Below, piece by piece: positions 1,146 through 38,571 of a stretch of 64,000 nt of DNA (positions within the stretch are counted from its first letter, which is position 1; every line of letters starts with the position of its first letter). A program made the translations under genes and the position numbers. Under the pieces are notes generated by a model, which was given only the letters and a program-made list of their open reading frames with translations, made no database searches and was not told the DNA's origin. The DNA is from a virus. The stretch lies in IMG/VR virus record IMGVR_UViG_3300034691_000049, positions 1 to 64,000 of that record, one strand, 5' to 3'.

Positions 1146-2075
1146 TCACAACTGGAACTCAGCAGGAATGTCGGTAACGACTTGTTTATGCGCAAACTCA
1201 AGCATGGCCTTCTTATAAGGCGCACCCTGAGTCGATATGTGATAACCGTTGGCGTAGATACGCCCTCTTTTATCGTACTTGTGATGCAAGTAGAACTTGT
1301 TGCCTTGACCTGCCATAAGCAGGTAGAACTCATGCGATTGGCGCTTCTGATTCAACCACATGGTTTGTTTCTCAGGAGAATCCAGCTCACTGTTGGGCAT
1401 TTCCTCAACTGTGCTCAGGAACTCCAGATCCAGCGATAGTGCGACTGAATTCTTCGAATCCAGTACATCAAGGCACACGTCGTCGTTGTGGTGACCTTTA
1501 TTCAAGATCACCGAGTCCTGTCCAATAGTCAGGTACGGCGTGTCCTTGTTGTGACGCAGCTTCTTCGGTGGATGCACCAGAGGCGGCAGATAGGCGCAGT
1601 TGGCGATGTACTCTTCCAACTGAAGGGACAGGGTGATGTTGCTGATGATGTTCCAGCTACCGAATCGGTTGGCCTGGGTCAGGTCAAACAGATCGGTATC
1701 ACACAGTACTGCGGTGATTTCCGCAATGGTGGTGATGCTGGACTTCTTGTCGTCCCAGCCGAGGGTGCCGGCCATGCGGGCTGTGAAGCTGGTGAACAGT
1801 TCTTCATGCTGGCAGTAGGCCGAAGCCACAACGATATCAATGACCAGCTCACGCAGGTCCATGCCGCGCAAGCCAGAGATGCGAATGTTCTTCGACTCGT
1901 AGCTGAAGGTCTGGCCGACCCACTCAGTGAGCAGGTCAACGCCCTTATCCAGCAGTGGAATCACGTCTGCATCCGCAAGGACGTAGTCACGCATGTACTT
2001 GTCGATATGGTGACGGGCAAAACGGTATTCGTTTGCACGTTGTATATCGTCGGTAAGCATAAGGGTAGGTTTCAC
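1146..2075 (-). CDS. N4-type RNA polymerase II, N-terminal subunit RNAP1
   Basis: First subunit of the heterodimeric T7-like RNA polymerase of N4-like phages (N4 gp15 type); it needs RNAP2 (1-336) for the catalytic palm. 309 aa. Near residues 270-295, DKRGRIYANGYHISTQG matches the DxxGR element of single-subunit RNA polymerases (D-x-x-G-R, then N/S-x-Q-G), which contacts the template near the active site. So the break in the polymerase falls between DxxGR and motif A. Start is GTG at 2073-2075 with AGGAG 7 nt upstream. It is followed by two small genes and then RNAP2. Confidence 0.85.
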   Translation of the reverse strand: MKPTLMLTDDIQRANEYRFARHHIDKYMRDYVLADADVIPLLDKGVDLLTEWVGQTFSYESKNIRISGLRGMDLRELVIDIVVASAYCQHEELFTSFTARMAGTLGWDDKKSSITTIAEITAVLCDTDLFDLTQANRFGSWNIISNITLSLQLEEYIANCAYLPPLVHPPKKLRHNKDTPYLTIGQDSVILNKGHHNDDVCLDVLDSKNSVALSLDLEFLSTVEEMPNSELDSPEKQTMWLNQKRQSHEFYLLMAGQGNKFYLHHKYDKRGRIYANGYHISTQGAPYKKAMLEFAHKQVVTDIPAEFQL

Positions 2076-2085
2076 GGATAAACTC

Positions 2086-2322
2086 CTAGTTTACAAGCAT
2101 TGCAGCAAGTTTGATCTCTTCCGGTGTATCTTTAGGGTCAGCTTGGCATCTAAGCCCGTTACCCCCCAAATAGTACAGATCGCCGTTTGGCTCTAACGTG
2201 TAGATAACTGAAGCAGTGCAACCACTTAGTTGAGTCATACGCTGTAACGTAACCCAACGACCTGCTTGCTCAATTTCTAACTTTCCGCGGAACATATATA
2301 GGATGGTGCGCATCTCTTCCAT
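2086..2322 (-). CDS. small protein with shared C-terminal PExxKLAxML motif (array member)
   Basis: 78 aa, function unknown. It ends in TPEEIKLAAMLVN, matching the C-terminal signature (V/I)P(E/D)xV(K/R)LAxM(L/M) carried by about eleven other small proteins here. The rest is short beta-like segments rich in aromatic and Gly residues (YTLEPNGDLYYLGGNG). It is the last array gene before RNAP1. Start ATG 2320-2322 follows AGGTGA; an in-frame ATG nine bases later is an alternative. Confidence 0.7.
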   Translation of the reverse strand: MEEMRTILYMFRGKLEIEQAGRWVTLQRMTQLSGCTASVIYTLEPNGDLYYLGGNGLRCQADPKDTPEEIKLAAMLVN

Positions 2323-2329
2323 AATTCAC

Positions 2330-2590
2330 CTATTCTGTGCAGAGATGCACGACTTGAACACATTCAGGAAGACTATCTACCGAAATTGGCAGTAACTGGT
2401 TAAAGTAACTGATTCTAGAGTTGTCACGAGTACCTCTTTGAAGCATACGCCATTGAACCCCTTGAGGTTCGACAAAGCGGACATAAACCTCGCCCATGGG
2501 AAATCTGCTGCCTAAATGCATAGCAGTTGAGTCTTCAGCCTCCAAAATCATACGAATGTTGTCGTTTATTACGTTAACGGTGAGTGCCAT
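2330..2590 (-). CDS. small protein, divergent member of the C-terminal-motif array
   Basis: 86 aa, function unknown. C-terminus LPECVQVVHLCTE keeps the P-E-x-V core of the family motif but has lost the KLA part. The ATG at 2588-2590 has CGAGG six bases upstream; a GTG just before it also overlaps the upstream stop. Tandem position and length support membership. Confidence 0.65.
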   Translation of the reverse strand: MALTVNVINDNIRMILEAEDSTAMHLGSRFPMGEVYVRFVEPQGVQWRMLQRGTRDNSRISYFNQLLPISVDSLPECVQVVHLCTE

Positions 2591-2592
2591 CA

Positions 2593-2901
2593 CTAACCTC
2601 GCACAAATTCCAGCATTTTGATCGGCTCAGGTAGGGTCATGGCAGCAGACCATGCAATACCGTTTGGACTATCCAAACCCCAACGGGATTGATCGTCCCA
2701 GTAGAAATAGTTGTAGTACCAGTCCAACCCGGGATCTATAGTCTTTTTGTAGGGGTTCATTCTAACACGCCCGCAAAACACGCAACCTGGGCGGTACTGG
2801 TAAAACTTACCCCAATGAGGCTTCGAGTCTGCTTCCACAGTCTCGAAAACCTCAAGGATTACATCTTTGGTTTCGTTGAGGATCACCCAAACGGTCTTCA
2901 T
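2593..2901 (-). CDS. small protein, divergent member of the C-terminal-motif array
   Basis: 102 aa, unknown function. N-terminal half reads as a beta strand pair (KTVWVILNETKDVILEVFE), the same opening style as other members. It has a CVFC pair and a Tyr/Trp-rich centre. C-terminus LPEPIKMLEFVRG is a diverged form of the motif. It overlaps the upstream gene by ATGA. Confidence 0.7.
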   Translation of the reverse strand: MKTVWVILNETKDVILEVFETVEADSKPHWGKFYQYRPGCVFCGRVRMNPYKKTIDPGLDWYYNYFYWDDQSRWGLDSPNGIAWSAAMTLPEPIKMLEFVRG

Positions 2902-3191
2902 GGCGCCACCATCTGCATCATGAGGATTACGTCAGGAACTGATGCCAAACCCACGTCATTGAACTTATACCGCTGGTTTGAGTAACAATATTCACCCTTG
3001 TACCAACTGCCGAAATCATCTTGTAGATAAACCACACAGAATGGATCATCTTTTCGTGCTCCTTCGCATACTTGCAGAATCTCGCTAGAGAGAAGCCTTG
3101 TAGTCACACAAGGCACTGTATTTACTATGTAATACACAACACCAACCGTTAACCCGGAAATTCCCGGGGCTTGGAAGTTCCAGTTTTTCAT
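2898..3191 (-). CDS. small protein, member of the C-terminal-motif array
   Basis: 97 aa, unknown function. Ends VPDVILMMQMVAP, matching the shared signature (V-P-D-x-x then hydrophobic helix). Central region is aromatic-rich (DDFGSWYKGEYCYSNQRY). Its start and stop overlap its neighbours by ATGA, as expected for one translationally coupled operon. Confidence 0.7.
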   Translation of the reverse strand: MKNWNFQAPGISGLTVGVVYYIVNTVPCVTTRLLSSEILQVCEGARKDDPFCVVYLQDDFGSWYKGEYCYSNQRYKFNDVGLASVPDVILMMQMVAP

Positions 3192-3442
3192 TCGAGCATC
3201 ATCCTCGTAAGTTTTACTATGTCAGGCACAAAATCAGGCTTTAACCACTCTTTGATCTGCACACGCCAGTACAGCCACACTTCCCGGTTATCTGTTGTCA
3301 TGTACCAGTGATACAGCGTGATTTCTGGATTCACTTCAGCCGTTGCAAACATGTGAAGTCCAATACCTAAAAGTATGTCGGACTCATCCGTCATAATCAC
3401 AGAATCTTGCACTTTGTTATAAGCAAAGGTAAATAGGCTCAT
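3188..3442 (-). CDS. small protein, member of the C-terminal-motif array
   Basis: 84 aa, unknown function. Ends FVPDIVKLTRMMLE, a clear copy of the shared motif. N-terminus FTFAYNKVQDSVIMTDESD resembles the opening of the 3654-3881 protein (FAVYDTVDKEVVLIADTF), so similarity extends beyond the tail. It overlaps both neighbours by ATGA. Confidence 0.75.
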   Translation of the reverse strand: MSLFTFAYNKVQDSVIMTDESDILLGIGLHMFATAEVNPEITLYHWYMTTDNREVWLYWRVQIKEWLKPDFVPDIVKLTRMMLE

Positions 3443-3657
3443 AACAGCATCATCATGGCTAGTTTTACCACTTCAGGTATGTCTTCATCCTTTATTGGGT
3501 GATACCCCTGAGTTTCTGGGGTCCAGCAGGACCACCAAACGCTGTTGTTGTATGCATAAACGTCCATATCGTCACGAAGGTACGGAATGTTCAATATCTG
3601 AACATCCAGCACCAGTTCTTCAGTGTTACGGCACCAACCTACTTTCTTTGTGCTCAT
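3439..3657 (-). CDS. small protein, member of the C-terminal-motif array
   Basis: 72 aa, unknown function. Ends DIPEVVKLAMMMLL, among the best matches to the consensus. The middle is Trp-rich (NNSVWWSCWTPET). The N-terminal NTEELVLDVQ fits the family pattern of a strand pair. ATGA overlaps on both sides. Confidence 0.75.
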   Translation of the reverse strand: MSTKKVGWCRNTEELVLDVQILNIPYLRDDMDVYAYNNSVWWSCWTPETQGYHPIKDEDIPEVVKLAMMMLL

Positions 3658-3881
3658 GTCAGTAACATGTGCGCAAGACGCACAGCCTCCGGCACTTCAG
3701 TTGTGGTTATAGGACTGCCAATGAGAATATCAATGTCAGTACCGAGGCGGTATGCGTACCAGCGATCCGGCACTTTGATGCCGTACACTGGACGGTATAC
3801 CGACCGTGTTTCAATGAACGTGTCCGCGATGAGGACCACCTCTTTATCGACGGTGTCGTAGACCGCGAAGAACACGGTCAT
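3654..3881 (-). CDS. small protein, member of the C-terminal-motif array
   Basis: 75 aa, unknown function. Ends EVPEAVRLAHMLLT, a near-consensus motif. A plausible layout is strand pair (FAVYDTVDKEVVLIAD), aromatic loop (RWYAYRLG), acidic linker, C-terminal helix. It is coupled to both neighbours through ATGA overlaps. Confidence 0.75.
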   Translation of the reverse strand: MTVFFAVYDTVDKEVVLIADTFIETRSVYRPVYGIKVPDRWYAYRLGTDIDILIGSPITTTEVPEAVRLAHMLLT

Positions 3882-4150
3882 TCGGACACCATGACAGCCA
3901 GCCGCACCATTTCAGGTACGTCAGCTTCCTGTTTATACAGACATTCCCCCGGGCACCGGGTCAACGACCATTGCAGGGAAGTGCGCCAAGGGTAGAAGGT
4001 GTAGACCCAGAACGTGTCAAACAAACCACAGCTCACCTTACCGCCATCGACCACCTGCCCAGTTGAGTAGTCCCACAGGATTTTGACAGGTACTGCGGGC
4101 GCCTGATCCGGGACATTAAATGGATCATCCCAAGGCATGGACGCCTTCAT
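3878..4150 (-). CDS. small protein, member of the C-terminal-motif array
   Basis: 90 aa, unknown function. Ends DVPEMVRLAVMVSE. It has an unusual Pro/Asp-rich N-terminus (PWDDPFNVPDQAPAVP) before the strand VKILWDYSTGQVVDGG, suggesting an N-terminal addition to the basic unit. It follows the macro-domain-like gene with an ATGA overlap. Confidence 0.75.
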   Translation of the reverse strand: MKASMPWDDPFNVPDQAPAVPVKILWDYSTGQVVDGGKVSCGLFDTFWVYTFYPWRTSLQWSLTRCPGECLYKQEADVPEMVRLAVMVSE

Positions 4151-4587
4151 GGTACTGGCTTCCAGACTTGGATGTTGCTCGGCAAGCGCTCGATAAGGCT
4201 ATTGAGCATCCATTCCGGTTGATCATACCCGGGCCACTCCAATGCAAAGACCTTGTCGGGGTTAGCCTGGGCCAACGTAGCCAATCGCAGCAGTGCCCCG
4301 GAGATCAAACCAAGGTTGATGCCGTTGCGGGGAGAGATCATGTGCTGTAAGATGCCAACCTTGCCAGAGCAACGCAGATAGAACTCGCCACCATCCCCGC
4401 ACGTCTCCTTGATCCACGCTCCCATCTTCGCCTTTAGGGTAGGGTATTTAAGACCCAACACCCCGGCGAGACCATTGAGCATAATAAGCTCTCCAGTCTC
4501 CACCCGAAGCTTACTTCCCACACAAATGATGAAATGATCGACTTGGTCGAAGACATCCATCATATCCCCATGTTTAATCACGTTCAT
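4147..4587 (-). CDS. macro-domain-like protein (possible ADP-ribose binding or hydrolysis)
   Basis: 146 aa. The pattern fits a single macro domain: N-terminal strand and GD (VIKHGDMMDVFDQVDHFIIC), a Gly/Ala loop with helix (NGLAGVLGLKYP), a Gly-rich second loop (RNGINLGLISGALLRLA), then strand (VFALEWPGYDQPEWM). Macro domains bind ADP-ribose and some remove it from proteins or nucleic acids. The usual VNAAN-like stretch is not clearly seen, so activity is uncertain. It sits inside the small-protein array with ATGA overlaps on both sides, so it is an early gene. A role against NAD-based host defence is inference only. Confidence 0.5.
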   Translation of the reverse strand: MNVIKHGDMMDVFDQVDHFIICVGSKLRVETGELIMLNGLAGVLGLKYPTLKAKMGAWIKETCGDGGEFYLRCSGKVGILQHMISPRNGINLGLISGALLRLATLAQANPDKVFALEWPGYDQPEWMLNSLIERLPSNIQVWKPVP

Positions 4588-4835
4588 CGCATAATCTCCG
4601 CAGTTCGTACGATTTCAGGAACACTATTGAGCAATTCAGGCTCCCAGCGTGCATAAGCAATGCCAGCGGTAGGGATTGAGTACCAATCCCCATCACGAGC
4701 ACGCCACCACAAGTGGCAACCTTCATATGTAGCAACAACCTTGTGCATATCAGCAATAGACCAATTGGCTTGGTCTACGAGGATGCCATCGACGTAATCA
4801 CCGTCTCGGGTGACGTGGTACATGAGCATTGCCAT
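4584..4835 (-). CDS. small protein, member of the C-terminal-motif array
   Basis: 83 aa, unknown function. Ends SVPEIVRTAEIMR, the shared motif with Thr in place of Leu. N-terminal strand pair MYHVTRDGDYVDGILVDQ and a Trp-rich centre (HLWWRARDGDWYSI) match the family layout. The start ATG follows a GGGGG tract. Confidence 0.7.
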   Translation of the reverse strand: MAMLMYHVTRDGDYVDGILVDQANWSIADMHKVVATYEGCHLWWRARDGDWYSIPTAGIAYARWEPELLNSVPEIVRTAEIMR

Positions 4836-4839
4836 AGTT

Positions 4840-5109
4840 TTAACCCCCTTGAATTAGATGAGCCATTATCACCACATCAGGTGGTATTGCAGGCTCCCAA
4901 ATGGCGCTGCGTATGGTATTGGTGTCCATATAGGCCCAACCAAACATAACGCGGCACCACACCCGACAATCAGGGTAATCTTTGGCAGCACTCCTATAAC
5001 TGTAGGTATCCGGCGAATCTAACTGGATAACTCCAACAATTTCCCCATTTTGCTCTACGAACCAGACGGGAGTTACGCCTTTCGGTAGGTGAGCAGAGTC
5101 AACTTGCAC
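4840..5109 (-). CDS. small protein, member of the C-terminal-motif array
   Basis: 89 aa, unknown function. GTG start (5107-5109) inside the end of the upstream gene. Begins with a strand pair (TPVWFVEQNGEIVGVIQLD) and ends IPPDVVIMAHLIQGG, a variant of the shared motif with PP in place of PE. Confidence 0.65.
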   Translation of the reverse strand: MQVDSAHLPKGVTPVWFVEQNGEIVGVIQLDSPDTYSYRSAAKDYPDCRVWCRVMFGWAYMDTNTIRSAIWEPAIPPDVVIMAHLIQGG

Positions 5110-5473
5110 ACATCATTGCCACCTGAGCTTCAGGTGGCACCTCATCGTGCTGCACCGTCATAAGCGACGGACGTTTGTACAAAGTGCCCACGTTGGCATT
5201 CTTCCAGCGAATTTCACGCCAAACACGGTCAACACTGGGACGATAGAACATCACCCGGCATTTACCATGAGTTTGGAATGCTTTCTTTGCGTAGTACGCA
5301 GCATCGAACTTGGTACGTTCTTCAATTTGCAGAACGTCGCCATCACGGAATACTGCGCACAGAACTGGCTCAGCAATGTGAGCACGCTTCACTACGTTGT
5401 TATTAATGTTCATTGGGTCTTCAACCTCACCGAAAGACAGCATGTTTGTATAGTTTCTAGGTTTTCGGCTCAT
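5099..5473 (-). CDS. small protein, probable member of the C-terminal-motif array
   Basis: 124 aa from the ATG at 5471-5473, which overlaps the upstream stop (ATGA) and has GGAGG four bases before it. Ends EVPPEAQVAMMCAS, a variant of the shared motif. The first 40 residues are basic and Asn-rich and absent from other members. Then comes a strand pair (EPVLCAVFRDGDVLQIEERT), matching the usual unit, so this looks like an extended family member. Confidence 0.65.
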   Translation of the reverse strand: MSRKPRNYTNMLSFGEVEDPMNINNNVVKRAHIAEPVLCAVFRDGDVLQIEERTKFDAAYYAKKAFQTHGKCRVMFYRPSVDRVWREIRWKNANVGTLYKRPSLMTVQHDEVPPEAQVAMMCAS

Positions 5474-5781
5474 ACAGCCTCCAAGATACCCAGAGTGTTC
5501 ATGACATGTGTCATTTTGCCCTCTTGCCACACACCAGCCCGATGAACACGGAACAACGCGAAGGCATTGAGAAATTCCTGCATCTCTTGCAAAGAATCAG
5601 CAACGTGAGTGACGCGCTGCATCCCTATACCGTTGGAATTCTTCAAATCCAACGAAAGCTGCATAAAGGAGATATCAGGTACAACTTCGCTGTGTTTCTG
5701 GCTTACACTCAGCTCATTCAGCACTAGCGAAATGAAGCCGAAGCACATCAACACAAAGAGCACATTAAGAGCTAACTGCAC
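5470..5781 (-). CDS. membrane-anchored hypothetical protein, 103 aa
   Basis: Not recognised. Residues 3-22 (LALNVLFVLMCFGFISLVL) form one membrane segment at the N-terminus; the rest is soluble and helical. Its stop overlaps the start of the 5099-5473 gene by ATGA, and its start lies two bases after the 5784-6428 stop. Two consecutive single-pass membrane proteins suggest a complex at the inner membrane, but nothing further can be said. Confidence 0.7.
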   Translation of the reverse strand: MQLALNVLFVLMCFGFISLVLNELSVSQKHSEVVPDISFMQLSLDLKNSNGIGMQRVTHVADSLQEMQEFLNAFALFRVHRAGVWQEGKMTHVMNTLGILEAV

Positions 5782-6859: not shown

Positions 6860-7201
6860 TTACACCAGATCCAGCATCGATTCTTCGTCGGTGCGAGTTG
6901 GGTTGAAGCTGAATTCCAGCTTCTTGGTGAACTCACTGAGACGACGCGCTTTTTCAGCGACCAGTTCATCGGCGTTCAGCTTTTCATCGCCCGGGCGAGT
7001 GCAGCCGAGGTAAGCAGCGATCTGTTCGTGAGTCTTGTTGCCTTCCAGCAGGCGGACAGCGTCAACACGAATCGGATTGCCTTTGGCAGTCGGCAGATTC
7101 AGGTTGATGAAACCGAGGGTTTTCTTGGCAGCACCACCGCCTTCAGCACGAGCAGGAGCAGCAGAAGTGTTCGAGGTAGAGCCTTTACGTTCAACAGCCA
7201 T
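6860..7201 (-). CDS. hypothetical protein, 113 aa, Ala/Gly-rich N-terminus
   Basis: Not recognised. Start ATG 7199-7201 has GGAG eight bases upstream. The N-terminal 30 residues are low-complexity (STSNTSAAPARAEGGGAAKK), followed by a compact domain (GFINLNLPTAKGNPIRVDAV) and a helical segment (KTHEQIAAYLGCTR) resembling a DNA-binding or dimerisation helix pair. It lies directly downstream of the HTH gene. Confidence 0.65.
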   Translation of the reverse strand: MAVERKGSTSNTSAAPARAEGGGAAKKTLGFINLNLPTAKGNPIRVDAVRLLEGNKTHEQIAAYLGCTRPGDEKLNADELVAEKARRLSEFTKKLEFSFNPTRTDEESMLDLV

Positions 7202-7568: not shown

Positions 7569-7583
7569 GCCCTCTATGAGGGC
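7569..7583 (-). repeat. GC hairpin with 3-nt loop upstream of the HTH gene
   Basis: GCCCTC-TAT-GAGGGC, a perfect 6-bp stem with a 3-base loop, in the gap between the HTH gene and the next gene upstream. N4 vRNAP promoters are 5-7 bp stems with 3-nt loops, so it is a promoter candidate, but an mRNA-stability hairpin is equally possible. Confidence 0.45.
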
Positions 7584-7644: not shown

Positions 7645-7938
7645 TCAGAACTCGAACAATTGCGACTTGATGCCGTTGGCCACGTACGCATTGTGGGAGT
7701 TCTCCGCTTCACGACGCATAGCGTCACGGCTGCCGCAACCACTGCGCACAAAGGCCGAGACCAGCTTAGGTTTCACGATCAACACGCTATTAATAGCGTT
7801 CTCCTGCAATTTAGCTGCAACCAGCTCACAGGATTCACCCTTACGAATGACCGCAGTCATATCGGTGTAAGAGTTGGTGCATTCAACACTGCCGGTGGCA
7901 GTGCTTATGACACAAGCAGTAAAGAATGCAAAGATCAT
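7645..7938 (-). CDS. probable secreted/periplasmic protein, 97 aa
   Basis: Residues 1-16 (MIFAFFTACVISTATG) read as a short signal peptide. The mature part has Cys residues that could form disulfides (VECTNSY, ESCELV, GCGSRD). The C-terminal helix (RDAMRREAENSHNAY) resembles that of the 8139-8447 protein (RDAVIERVMKTYSD), so the two are probably paralogues. Function unknown; envelope-directed early proteins often affect superinfection. Confidence 0.65.
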   Translation of the reverse strand: MIFAFFTACVISTATGSVECTNSYTDMTAVIRKGESCELVAAKLQENAINSVLIVKPKLVSAFVRSGCGSRDAMRREAENSHNAYVANGIKSQLFEF

Positions 7939-7950
7939 GGTTGTTTATCC

Positions 7951-8142
7951 TTATGAGTTAAGCATACGCAGCATCTTGCGGCGTTGCTGACGACGTTGTT
8001 TAGAGTTACCCACAAAAGATGGGTAATACACGACCGAGTCAGTACCATCTACAATAGCCCAATGGTTATGACGATTTACGTCCCGCAGTATCAGGAAAGG
8101 CGGGCACTTCTTACGTTGTATGTACTTGACGACGTAGTTCAT
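7951..8142 (-). CDS. small basic hypothetical protein, 63 aa
   Basis: Not recognised. Short strands followed by a very basic C-terminus (NSKQRRQQRRKMLRMLNS), suggesting nucleic-acid or acidic-protein binding. ATGA-type overlap with the upstream gene (8139). It lies between the two paralogous secreted-protein genes. Confidence 0.6.
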   Translation of the reverse strand: MNYVVKYIQRKKCPPFLILRDVNRHNHWAIVDGTDSVVYYPSFVGNSKQRRQQRRKMLRMLNS

Positions 8143-8447
8143 GGATATTTATCCAAATTACGGATGGCGTACATAACTCCACCATCACTGTAAGTTTTCA
8201 TGACTCGCTCGATGACAGCATCGCGGTGAGCCGCAGTTGAATAACAATTGTGCGAACCCTTCTCCAATCGGATTACACCGGCTTGTTTCTTGAGTTCGTT
8301 GTTGAGTTTGTATCGGACATTGTCCATGGCGACATAACAGTTGGCATCAGTGAACGCCATGAACTTGTCATAGGTGTTAACGATACAAACTGTACCGCCA
8401 TCGACAACAGTGGCACATACGAGCGCCACAGTTGCGAAGAAGGGCAT
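8139..8447 (-). CDS. probable secreted/periplasmic protein, 102 aa
   Basis: N-terminal hydrophobic signal-like segment (MPFFATVALVCATVVDGG) and three further Cys (VCIVN, ANCYV, HNCYS). Shares layout and C-terminal helix with 7645-7938, suggesting duplication. A good Shine-Dalgarno (AAGGAG) precedes the ATG. Function unknown. Confidence 0.65.
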   Translation of the reverse strand: MPFFATVALVCATVVDGGTVCIVNTYDKFMAFTDANCYVAMDNVRYKLNNELKKQAGVIRLEKGSHNCYSTAAHRDAVIERVMKTYSDGGVMYAIRNLDKYP

Positions 8448-8457
8448 GAGTTACTCC

Positions 8458-8586
8458 TTAAATGTCGTCTTCGGCTTGCGCATCGAAGTAACCTTGTTGC
8501 CAGTCGGCACACTTGGTTGGGTCGAACTCTTCGTCGAGTTCATATGCGTCGTAGCCTTCATCGTAAGCGAGAATGTTCTTTGGCAT
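8458..8586 (-). CDS. small acidic protein, 42 aa, Rmf-like pattern
   Basis: Complete 42-aa frame with GGAG eight bases before the ATG (8584-8586). Very acidic (EGYDAYELDEEFDP) with one Cys and a final WQQGYFDAQ helix. The spacing of G-Y and W-x-x-G-Y resembles ribosome-modulation-factor-like small phage proteins, but at this length the likeness could be chance. Confidence 0.55.
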   Translation of the reverse strand: MPKNILAYDEGYDAYELDEEFDPTKCADWQQGYFDAQAEDDI

Positions 8587-8615
8587 GGGATATAACTCCT
8601 AAAGTAAGTACGAGA

Positions 8616-8912
8616 TTACTGGCCTTCTTGTTCCCACTTCGCTGCCAGGGACAGCCAGAAGTCCATGCGCTGATCTGTAGTTGGGCGAGGCAGCTCAAGA
8701 TTATTAATGAAGTGATTGTTCAAGGTGCCCCAAGGTTGGGTCACCTCACTGATCATGTCACGCACGCGCTGAACTTGCTGAGGGTTGTTTGGGTACATGT
8801 GCTTGAGTGCAACACACAAGAACTCTGAGTGATTATCCCCGCATCGGCCATCATCAGGCGTGTAGTGCGCAGAGAGCGCAGTATCAATGATCATTTGACT
8901 TGGTTTAAGCAC
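8616..8912 (-). CDS. hypothetical protein, 98 aa
   Basis: Not recognised. Mostly helical, with His and Cys residues in the N-terminal half (HYTPDDGRCGDNHSEFLCVA) that could bind metal. A sequence like this, about 90 aa with a C-terminal Trp-rich helix (DFWLSLAAKWEQEG), is common in phage early regions without known function. Confidence 0.6.
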   Translation of the reverse strand: MLKPSQMIIDTALSAHYTPDDGRCGDNHSEFLCVALKHMYPNNPQQVQRVRDMISEVTQPWGTLNNHFINNLELPRPTTDQRMDFWLSLAAKWEQEGQ

Positions 8913-9619: not shown

Positions 9620-9847
9620 CTATTCAAGCATTGCAGCAAGTTTTATGACATCAGGGACATCATCTGCATTAAGGCGTTGAGCACTGCCAGTGAGATGGTC
9701 AAGTTTGATACAGTACCAGCCGTTTATTGGGTTATACCAATAATAAGCAAGCCCCTCGTGTAACCGCATCGCTTGAACCACATCCTCCTGCAAAGGCAGG
9801 GTCTCGAACGCTTTGACACCATTATCAGGGAGCAGCATGAATTCCAT
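9620..9847 (-). CDS. small protein, distant-locus member of the C-terminal-motif family
   Basis: 75 aa from ATG 9845-9847 (GAGG eight bases upstream); the frame stays open to 10231, but that extension looks non-coding. Ends DDVPDVIKLAAMLE, one of the best copies of the motif shared by the proteins at 2086-5473, although this gene is about 4 kb away. The aromatic centre (AYYWYNPINGWYCI) also fits the family. It shows the family is not limited to one tandem block. Confidence 0.7.
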   Translation of the reverse strand: MEFMLLPDNGVKAFETLPLQEDVVQAMRLHEGLAYYWYNPINGWYCIKLDHLTGSAQRLNADDVPDVIKLAAMLE

Positions 9848-10276: not shown

Positions 10277-10570
10277 TTAAGCAGCGACGGCGTCAGCCTC
10301 GACTTGCAGGGCTTTCAGCTTGGCATTGAGGTCAGAAGCAGACAGAGCAGACTCAGCAGCACGAATGCGTTGATTGATGTCGTATTTGCCACGGAGAGCG
10401 TCGAGTTTCTCGTTACGTTCCAGAGTAGCGATTTCATTGAAGCCTTCAGCAGCACCCTCAACCCAGGAGGCAGAGTGGACAGCGGCATTGGACAACTTGG
10501 TACCAGCAGTGAACAGGTTGGTCAACATCAGGAAGAACTGAGCAGCCATAGCAAAGAACTGAGCAAACAT
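10277..10570 (-). CDS. first early gene: small hydrophobic/helical protein, 97 aa
   Basis: Not recognised. N-terminal hydrophobic Phe/Met-rich segment (MFAQFFAMAAQFFLMLTNLF) that could be a membrane helix, then a long charged helix likely to form a coiled coil (LERNEKLDALRGKYDINQRI). A clear GGAG lies eight bases before the ATG. As the first minus-strand gene next to the early/late divergence it should be among the earliest expressed. Confidence 0.7.
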   Translation of the reverse strand: MFAQFFAMAAQFFLMLTNLFTAGTKLSNAAVHSASWVEGAAEGFNEIATLERNEKLDALRGKYDINQRIRAAESALSASDLNAKLKALQVEADAVAA

Positions 10571-10730: not shown

Positions 10731-10743
10731 GGGCCGCAGGCCC
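10731..10743 (-). promoter_or_regulatory. candidate vRNAP early promoter hairpin
   Basis: Perfect 5-bp stem with 3-nt loop (GGGCC-GCA-GGCCC), upstream of the first early gene. This is the geometry of N4 vRNAP promoters, which extrude as small hairpins on the template strand. Position and shape are the only evidence; the N4 loop and downstream consensus were not verified. Confidence 0.4.
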
Positions 10744-15722: not shown

Positions 15723-16144
15723 TTGCCGGTACTCCCGAAACCACCAGCACCGCGGGCGCTGGAATTGGTGAACTGATCCACGAACTGCAAAGCAGGCGTG
15801 GCAACTGGAACAACAATGAACTGAAACATGCGCTCGCCTGCCGCCCACTGAATAACATCACCCGGACGACCTTGAATGTTCACCTTCCATTCACCTTCGT
15901 AGTCGCTGTCGATTACGCCCACCGTATTGCCCAAACGAATGCCTTGTTTCACACCGGCACTCGAACGTGGCAGAATCAGCGCAACATGGCCGACCGGAAC
16001 CTTGGCGGCGAAGCCAAGACCGTGAAGTCCTGCGGAACCGCTCAAGTTGCTGCCACTTGCAGGCATGTACAGGTCATAACCTGCTGCACCTTCAGTTCCG
16101 CGGGTTGGTGCGATCAAATCCGGGTGTAGTTTAACGATTTCCAC
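15719..16144 (-). CDS. dut: dUTPase (dUTP diphosphatase)
   Basis: 141 aa, trimeric dUTPase family; hydrolyses dUTP to dUMP and pyrophosphate. Motifs are in order: AAGYDLYMP (I), PRSSAGVKQGI (II), NTVGVIDSDYEGEW (III, catalytic Asp), GERMFQFIVVPV (IV) and the Gly-rich tail GAGGFGSTGK (V). GTG start at 16142-16144 after AAGGAAG. It works with the dCTP deaminase at 55905-56426 to supply dUMP and limit uracil in DNA. The 30-bp gap to the portal gene must hold any divergent promoter. Confidence 0.93.
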   Translation of the reverse strand: MEIVKLHPDLIAPTRGTEGAAGYDLYMPASGSNLSGSAGLHGLGFAAKVPVGHVALILPRSSAGVKQGIRLGNTVGVIDSDYEGEWKVNIQGRPGDVIQWAAGERMFQFIVVPVATPALQFVDQFTNSSARGAGGFGSTGK

Positions 16145-37619: not shown

Positions 37620-37697
37620 GGTGTTCTGGAAGTACATCTACCGCGGCTTCCCATGGCAACACTCACTACTGAGTGGCAGATGTACCACCAGAACACC
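37620..37697 (-). repeat. long imperfect inverted repeat in the leader of the 112-aa gene
   Basis: Two 20-nt arms (37620-37639 and 37678-37697) pair at 18 of 20 positions; inside is a second perfect hairpin CACTCA-CTAC-TGAGTG (37660-37675). It lies about ten bases upstream of the AAGGA ribosome site of the 37260-37598 gene. A structured leader controlling that gene or a small RNA are both possible. Confidence 0.65.
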
Positions 37698-38571
37698 ATC
37701 TAAGTGCAAACCTCTCTTACGAGTCAGCTTGCGGAGATAATGTTCCGGGCGAGTAACCATCTCACAACTTTATAGGTTATTAGCCACAAACTTGCTTGTT
37801 CGTGTACAACTGACTTCGGCTGAAGTTATGTTGAGATTTAAATTCATTATTCCCCTGCCCGTCAGGTCAGAGGTACGCTAATACGGCTAACTTGCACGCT
37901 CGCGTAACCACATTTCTGTTTTTACCAAATTCAGCACTTACTCGTACTGTTAGGTACAGCGGCGGATCTTTTTAATACCCTAGGGGGTATTGGGGAACAC
38001 ACCGGCGTAACAGACCACTTCCAGTTACAAATGGTCGTTATCCCTCCCGGTATGCTCCCCAATACCACCGTAAACGGCGATATTGGGTTCGATCTTATGT
38101 TCGAACAGACATACCGACTCTATGCTCGTCGGGTCAGCAGCCCCTGCCCGGGACAAGGGTTCAAATGAGATTGGTGATGTCGGTAGTCACGGTCGGTCAT
38201 CACAAGCGCGTGAACGCTCAGCTTTACCTTCAATCTCAACCTGGGTGGCAGCATGATCGGTGCTACACCTGATCAGCTTCAGCTCTCATCCCACAGTTAG
38301 GATGACTTTCGCACAGCGCTATGAGGCTGATGCCTTGCTGCCAAATTAGGTGGCACTTCAGCTTTGTTTCTGTACCTGCCGTCGCGACGGCGTTTCTGAT
38401 GTCCAGAAGAAGTGCCATAAATTTCGGCTCGTTGTTTTCCAAACAGTTTTCGCGGTAACAAACGTCGTTCTGTTCGCCAACTTCAGTTGGTTTTGCTGTT
38501 CAGTACCGATCACAGCATTATCCGATCTGTATTTACAGGAGCACGAATGACACAGGCCCCTCCTGCCTTTT
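37698..38571. ncRNA. 870-bp non-coding region dense in nested inverted repeats; possible structured RNA(s) or origin
   Basis: No reading frame with a ribosome site is convincing. Inverted repeats: an 11-bp outer stem 37986-37996/38056-38066 enclosing ACCGG/CCGGT and GACCA/TGGTC; an alternative stem AATACCC/GGGTATT (37974-37991) sharing bases with the outer stem; GAGATTG/CAATCTC (38167/38231); TGATC-GGTG-CTA-CACC-t-GATCA (38254-38275); GGCACTTC/GAAGTGCC (38352/38409) around the palindrome GCCGTCGCGACGGC (38378-38391). Such density suggests RNA structure or a replication origin. It lies in the minus transcription unit between replication genes and 37260-37598. Confidence 0.5.

Follow-up and report, generated by a model that had tools for sequence, protein, structure and literature searches.

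Do the small early genes packed beside RNAP1 in this N4-like phage belong together and, if so, what might they do? The locus lies at 2086-5473 of the window, the 64,000-nucleotide stretch analysed here (positions 1 to 64,000 of IMGVR_UViG_3300034691_000049), which comes from a virus record of 72,809 bases. The window carries an N4-like gene set, with a 3382-amino acid virion RNA polymerase, RNAP1 and the N4-type gene order. Among named phages, the nearest is Pseudomonas phage phCDa (Schitoviridae, Shizishanvirus), whose RNAP1 is 87% identical. Eleven genes within 2086-5473 and a twelfth at 9620-9847, all on the minus strand and named below by their lower coordinate, encode proteins with the C-terminal motif [VIL]-P-[ED]-x-[VI]-[KR]-[LM]-A-x-[ML]-[LMV]. 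The twelve are well supported as paralogues within a single family of small domains (~70-125 amino acids).

The original prediction, made before any comparison with other genomes, had assigned one C-terminal motif to twelve proteins, with weaker copies in 2330, 2593, 2898, 4840 and 5099. Small early proteins from 16 phages, unselected, were compared all against all at their C-termini, N-termini and middles, using the 99.9% null score as the cut-off. In the window, 17 C-terminal pairs exceeded this cut-off against 0.33 expected; for N-terminal and mid-protein pairs, the counts were 0 and 0. These data support the motif in all twelve proteins, and the weaker copies are backed by orthologues in other genomes. 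Relatives were gathered by a scan with RNAP1 and their early regions were then searched for members, which yielded ~110 members in 13 orthologue groups from nine related genomes. Family proteins end in P-x-x-[VIL]-[KR]-[LM]-x-x-[ML]-[LIV], ~3 residues or less from the stop, and a C-terminal pattern search recovered 9 of the 12 window members and 7 phCDa proteins, orthologues among them. Profile-profile comparison of the last 18 residues, which is partly circular because the motif was used to gather the groups (the unselected pair test is free of this), gave a median probability of 72% among the 13 groups, with at least 50% in 64% of pairs. Against 19 other gene groups from the same phages, the median was 0.1% and 0.4% of pairs reached at least 50%; the 19 groups compared with one another also had a median of 0.1%. 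The tails are thus significantly alike.

The likeness extends beyond the tail. AlphaFold2 models of 9620 and 4584, two of the twelve window members, had predicted local distance difference test (pLDDT) values of 89.7 and 94.2, respectively. Both were predicted to adopt a beta-beta-alpha-beta-beta-beta-alpha topology in which the shared tail forms the last helix, and they represent one fold despite having little sequence in common beyond the tail. On the strength of these models, the topology is a well-supported prediction for the family. Profile comparison of tail-less bodies also detected homology between groups: 74% for 9620 and 9754, 59% for 2330 and 9754, and 58% for 4840 and 4584. The bodies are therefore less different than originally described, and the proposed history is supported for one paralogous family of the early region: genes duplicated and then diverged around a C-terminal helix that stayed conserved.

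Searches with the 4584 model against a viral model library returned five phCDa proteins at probabilities of 0.99-1.00 and template modelling (TM) scores of 0.60-0.91. Four of these, assigned by length, are orthologues of 4584, 5099 and 9620, plus the member phCDa_48; the fifth, of 96 amino acids, is ambiguous, more than one phCDa protein having that length. Next came an 85-amino acid protein of phage Littlefix (probability 0.72, TM-score 0.59), the length of gp49 and gp52 of the Littlefix array described below. No match to the fold was found in the PDB using Foldseek (E <= 0.001), the resemblance to T4 Dmd being too weak (E 2.7). Pfam, PHROGs, NCBIfam, PADLOC and PDB sequences yielded no family match, only isolated chance-level scores, and bacterial genomes scanned with the 5099 protein contained no relative. 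Conservation along the proteins is too low in every stretch for alignment-based scans of sequence collections to gather the family. No description of the array was found in the open-access literature, to which the search was limited. The small protein domain of the array is previously undescribed.

The genes and coordinates originally given for a tandem, mostly overlapping array proved right: 8 of the 12 junctions from 2086 to 5781 are 4-base pair ATGA overlaps, the rest being 2-7 nucleotide gaps or an 11-nucleotide overlap. Two gene starts are corrected, those of 2330 and 5099; 2330 more likely begins at ATG 2590 than at GTG 2593 because its orthologues begin MALIV. Nearest RNAP1 are 2086-2322 (78 amino acids, tail TPEEIKLAAMLVN), 2330-2590 (86 amino acids from ATG 2590, LPECVQVVHLCTE), 2593-2901 (102, LPEPIKMLEFVRG) and 2898-3191 (97, VPDVILMMQMVAP). 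These are followed by 3188-3442 (84, VPDIVKLTRMMLE), 3439-3657 (72, IPEVVKLAMMMLL), which was found in all nine genomes, 3654-3881 (75, VPEAVRLAHMLLT) and 3878-4150 (90, VPEMVRLAVMVSE). The array is then split by a non-member, a phosphatase-like gene (phrog_335; 4147-4587, minus strand) with a similar neighbourhood in Littlefix, LIT1 and LUZ7. Beyond it lie 4584-4835 (83, VPEIVRTAEIMR), 4840-5109 (89, PPDVVIMAHLIQGG), with a body akin to that of 4584, and 5099-5473 (VPPEAQVAMMCAS). The last has an N-terminal extension; its best reading starts at ATG 5473, giving 124 amino acids, and Littlefix gp50 is probably related to it over the full length. The twelfth member, 9620-9847 (75, VPDVIKLAAMLE), has at least two tandem copies in some relatives.

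Several further reading frames touch the family. Window gene 358-630 (MARLFIRH...FADMILN), downstream of RNAP1, vaguely resembles a member: its tail matches the 2086 group at 43%, but its full-length profile match is <2% and lends no support. Deposited records contain unannotated members in phCDa (37659-37889; L003:13660-13890) and in 98PfluR60PP (L029:14549-14806 and 15738-15995). Short or frame-overlapping open reading frames at L009:7340-7471 and L012:7308-7517 hold only a member's C-terminal part and are possibly decay remnants. In some 4584 orthologues (L010:7171-7263, L012:7118-7210, L028:7169-7267), the reading frame stays open at the N-terminal side, with an extension such as FELRDANGVVRVSIG that looks like a motif of tail-fibre or host-specificity proteins.

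The block changes rapidly. Amino acid identity of members to their relatives is mostly 35-75%, as compared to 86-95% for RNAP1, and the members' ratios of non-synonymous to synonymous substitution (dN/dS) are about 0.1-0.55. Together, these values indicate that the members diverge fast yet stay functional. Gene content varies as well: 4840 and 3188 are absent from several relatives, the window lacks 9754, and 9620 is multiplied elsewhere, in a copy table that leaves out identical copies and in which some zeros for relatives L007 and L010 are not absences. Identity to L007, otherwise about 0.6-0.7, climbs to 0.85-0.97 around 4840-4361; identity to L028 likewise climbs at 5380-5141 and 4180-3600. 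Such sharp, short-range rises to single relatives indicate that parts of the block have been exchanged. The block thus alters by duplication, loss and patchy exchange, with each gene under purifying selection.

Two genes bracket the array. Just downstream is RNAP1 (1146-2075, minus strand), which forms the small subunit of the N4-type middle RNA polymerase; upstream in the early region is a homologue of LIT1 gp13 and LUZ7 gp14 (6860-7195, minus strand; phrog_6271, annotated 'toxin', host takeover). Two perfect hairpins on the minus strand are candidate early promoters: GCCCTC-ATA-GAGGGC, intergenic at 7569-7583, which may serve the virion RNA polymerase, and GGGCC-TGC-GGCCC at 10731-10743, upstream of early gene 10277-10570. 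At the position of the former, L007 and L011 have GCCCC-TTTT-GGGGC, such that pairing is retained while the stem sequence changes. For regions of this kind in N4-like phages, transcription by the virion polymerase is predicted to start at hairpin promoters (PMC3715699), and the two window hairpins are of the type so predicted in LIT1 and LUZ7. The position of the array and the two hairpins make its early expression likely.

What, then, might the family do? We consider it an even proposition that it is a lineage-expanded scaffold providing a repertoire of host-directed early binders for host takeover or counter-defence. Once the DNA has entered the cell, the block would be transcribed by the virion RNA polymerase and the proteins would be made together. 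The conserved helix and a tryptophan-bearing central hairpin would hold the scaffold, and diverged loops and strands would fit each copy to a host protein of its own. Together the members would supply a changeable set of inhibitors for host takeover or counter-defence. A host-takeover or anti-defence function of the members, as originally suggested, is a reasonable inference, and small early genes that are individually dispensable would fit a host-directed repertoire. Several observations weigh against this proposal. Adjacent early accessory genes diverge at a similar pace, so the rate by itself is no proof of an arms race, and no site-level positive selection was shown for the members. The AlphaFold2 models cover only two members, and body homology is undetectable between most pairs of groups. 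The database searches above gave no member with a known function, target or experimental relative, and the probable early expression is judged from position.

The principal rival is that the conserved C-terminal helix binds one shared partner, with the bodies as effectors delivered there; candidates for that partner are the phage's RNAP1/RNAP2, the phosphatase-like protein and a single host protein. A shared partner is possible because the helix is far more alike among paralogues than the remainder of the same fold; it also keeps residues that need no burial, such as the E/D after the proline and the K/R at position 5. Moreover, where Shizishanvirus-type and Littlefix-type phages have an array, the phosphatase-like gene goes with it, and genome L019 has neither of the two near RNAP1. 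By contrast, both models are single compact domains in which the helix is integral rather than a free tail, which leaves the original picture of a docking element apart from the body unsupported. Nor are tails more alike within one genome (0.309) than between genomes (0.310), no partner was found, and LIT1 and LUZ7 have the phosphatase-like gene without supported array members. On this evidence, docking on a shared partner has a minority chance of being correct. A compound version, in which the last helix is a lineage-specific adaptor surface that docks all members on one partner, the diverged faces take different host targets, and common-end arrays evolved more than once in N4-like phages, those of Vibrio phage phi50-12 having unrelated ends, is unlikely when all its parts are taken jointly.

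Two other explanations are considerably less probable. The members might assemble with one another through the shared helix, as a common, hydrophobic-rich helix and tightly coupled genes would favour; that members are singly lost or multiplied among relatives, unlike those of a fixed assembly, makes such a mixed oligomer quite improbable. Alternatively, the array might serve the phage's own transcription switch, its products being accessory factors of RNAP1/RNAP2 or the virion polymerase that do not act on the host. The array is indeed immediately beside RNAP1 in all Shizishanvirus-type relatives, but its gene content varies while RNAP1 is conserved at 86-95%, and L019 carries RNAP1 and RNAP2 with no array nearby, leaving little probability for this role.

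Finally, the shared end might have a cause at the DNA level, namely gene conversion, a linker for recombination, or a ribosome-binding site that lies within the shared end and serves the following gene. A 19-nucleotide exact word covering KLAAML is common to the ends of 2086-2322 and 9620-9847, more than 7 kilobases apart (all other gene-end pairs share at most 11 nucleotides), and identical tail residues use the same codon slightly above expectation (42% and 32%). Nevertheless, this explanation is largely refuted and very improbable: DNA identity between the tails is only about 50%, and therefore it is the protein that is conserved rather than a recent DNA copy; there is no within-genome excess, which together with the divergence led us to reject gene conversion or homogenisation within a genome as the main cause; and an embedded ribosome-binding site is at odds with the lack of a consistent Shine-Dalgarno word, a proline ~39 nucleotides ahead of the stop, and a motif present in 9620 and 2086, neither of which has an overlapping next gene. 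The DNA divergence and the equal similarity within and between genomes indicate that the tails have been kept through protein selection or descent.

About twelve seemingly unrelated genes of unknown function per phage are thereby brought together as one family. It occurs in two phage genera or more, and its fold has no match in the PDB. It offers an experimental handle, with one scaffold, many natural variants and a conserved helix open to mutation. Under the favoured reading of a host-directed repertoire, the array is a ready candidate set of Pseudomonas phage host-takeover or counter-defence proteins.

Among known systems, the host-takeover module of phage SPO1 is described as a 26-gene cluster whose products remodel host processes, and it resembles the window array in being a cluster of phage genes (PMC6873191, PMC10531801). 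By position and size, the window array is likewise a cluster of small early genes of this type. To our knowledge, the SPO1 module has not been described as a single paralogous fold family.

The closest parallel is in Littlefix and 98PfluR60PP, each of which has a tandem run of seven small genes that surrounds the same phosphatase-like gene and precedes RNAP1 (gp49-52 and gp54-56 in Littlefixvirus; two of those in 98PfluR60PP are unannotated). Their tail, P-x-x-[VIL]-[KRQ]-M-x-x-L-[IV]-G, is in register with that of the window family (tail profile match 93.7%), and Littlefix gp50 matches the 5099 group across 84 columns at 73%. The Littlefixvirus proteins differ in having methionine at tail position 6 and a G-A-[IV] extension, and most of their bodies have no sequence match. 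The Littlefix-type array is homologous to that of the window. Litunavirus LIT1 also has small genes, gp20-gp22, beside RNAP1; some end in helices of a P-x-x-L-x-A-L type, and gp21 and gp22 are paralogues (85%). We rejected the LIT1 and LUZ7 candidates as members, since their resemblance is one of pattern, with no significant profile match; both phages keep the phosphatase-like gene. Near RNAP1 of L019, which is 57% identical to that of the window, neither the array nor the phosphatase-like gene was present. In Vibrio phage VBP32 (L038), 2269-2487 and 7692-8816 gave 8 C-terminal pairs over threshold against 0.46 expected; these ends are acidic and leucine-rich, and either a third array or helices of low complexity would account for them.

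The same test gave 14 C-terminal pairs against 0.26 expected in phi50-12 (L034). Like the window, this phage has many small tandem early genes with one common C-terminus flanking RNAP1, located at 5-2882, 4183-4956 and 7948-8163, around RNAP2 and RNAP1. Its C-terminus differs, however, being [FLY]-[DNTE]-[IVL]-I-[LMI]-x-K(E) and probably a strand rather than a helix; with the ends compared by eye, the phi50-12 array is apparently unrelated to the window family. The presence of such a distinct array in a Vibrio phage suggests that N4-like phages have repeatedly used the strategy of multiplying one small early gene into an array.

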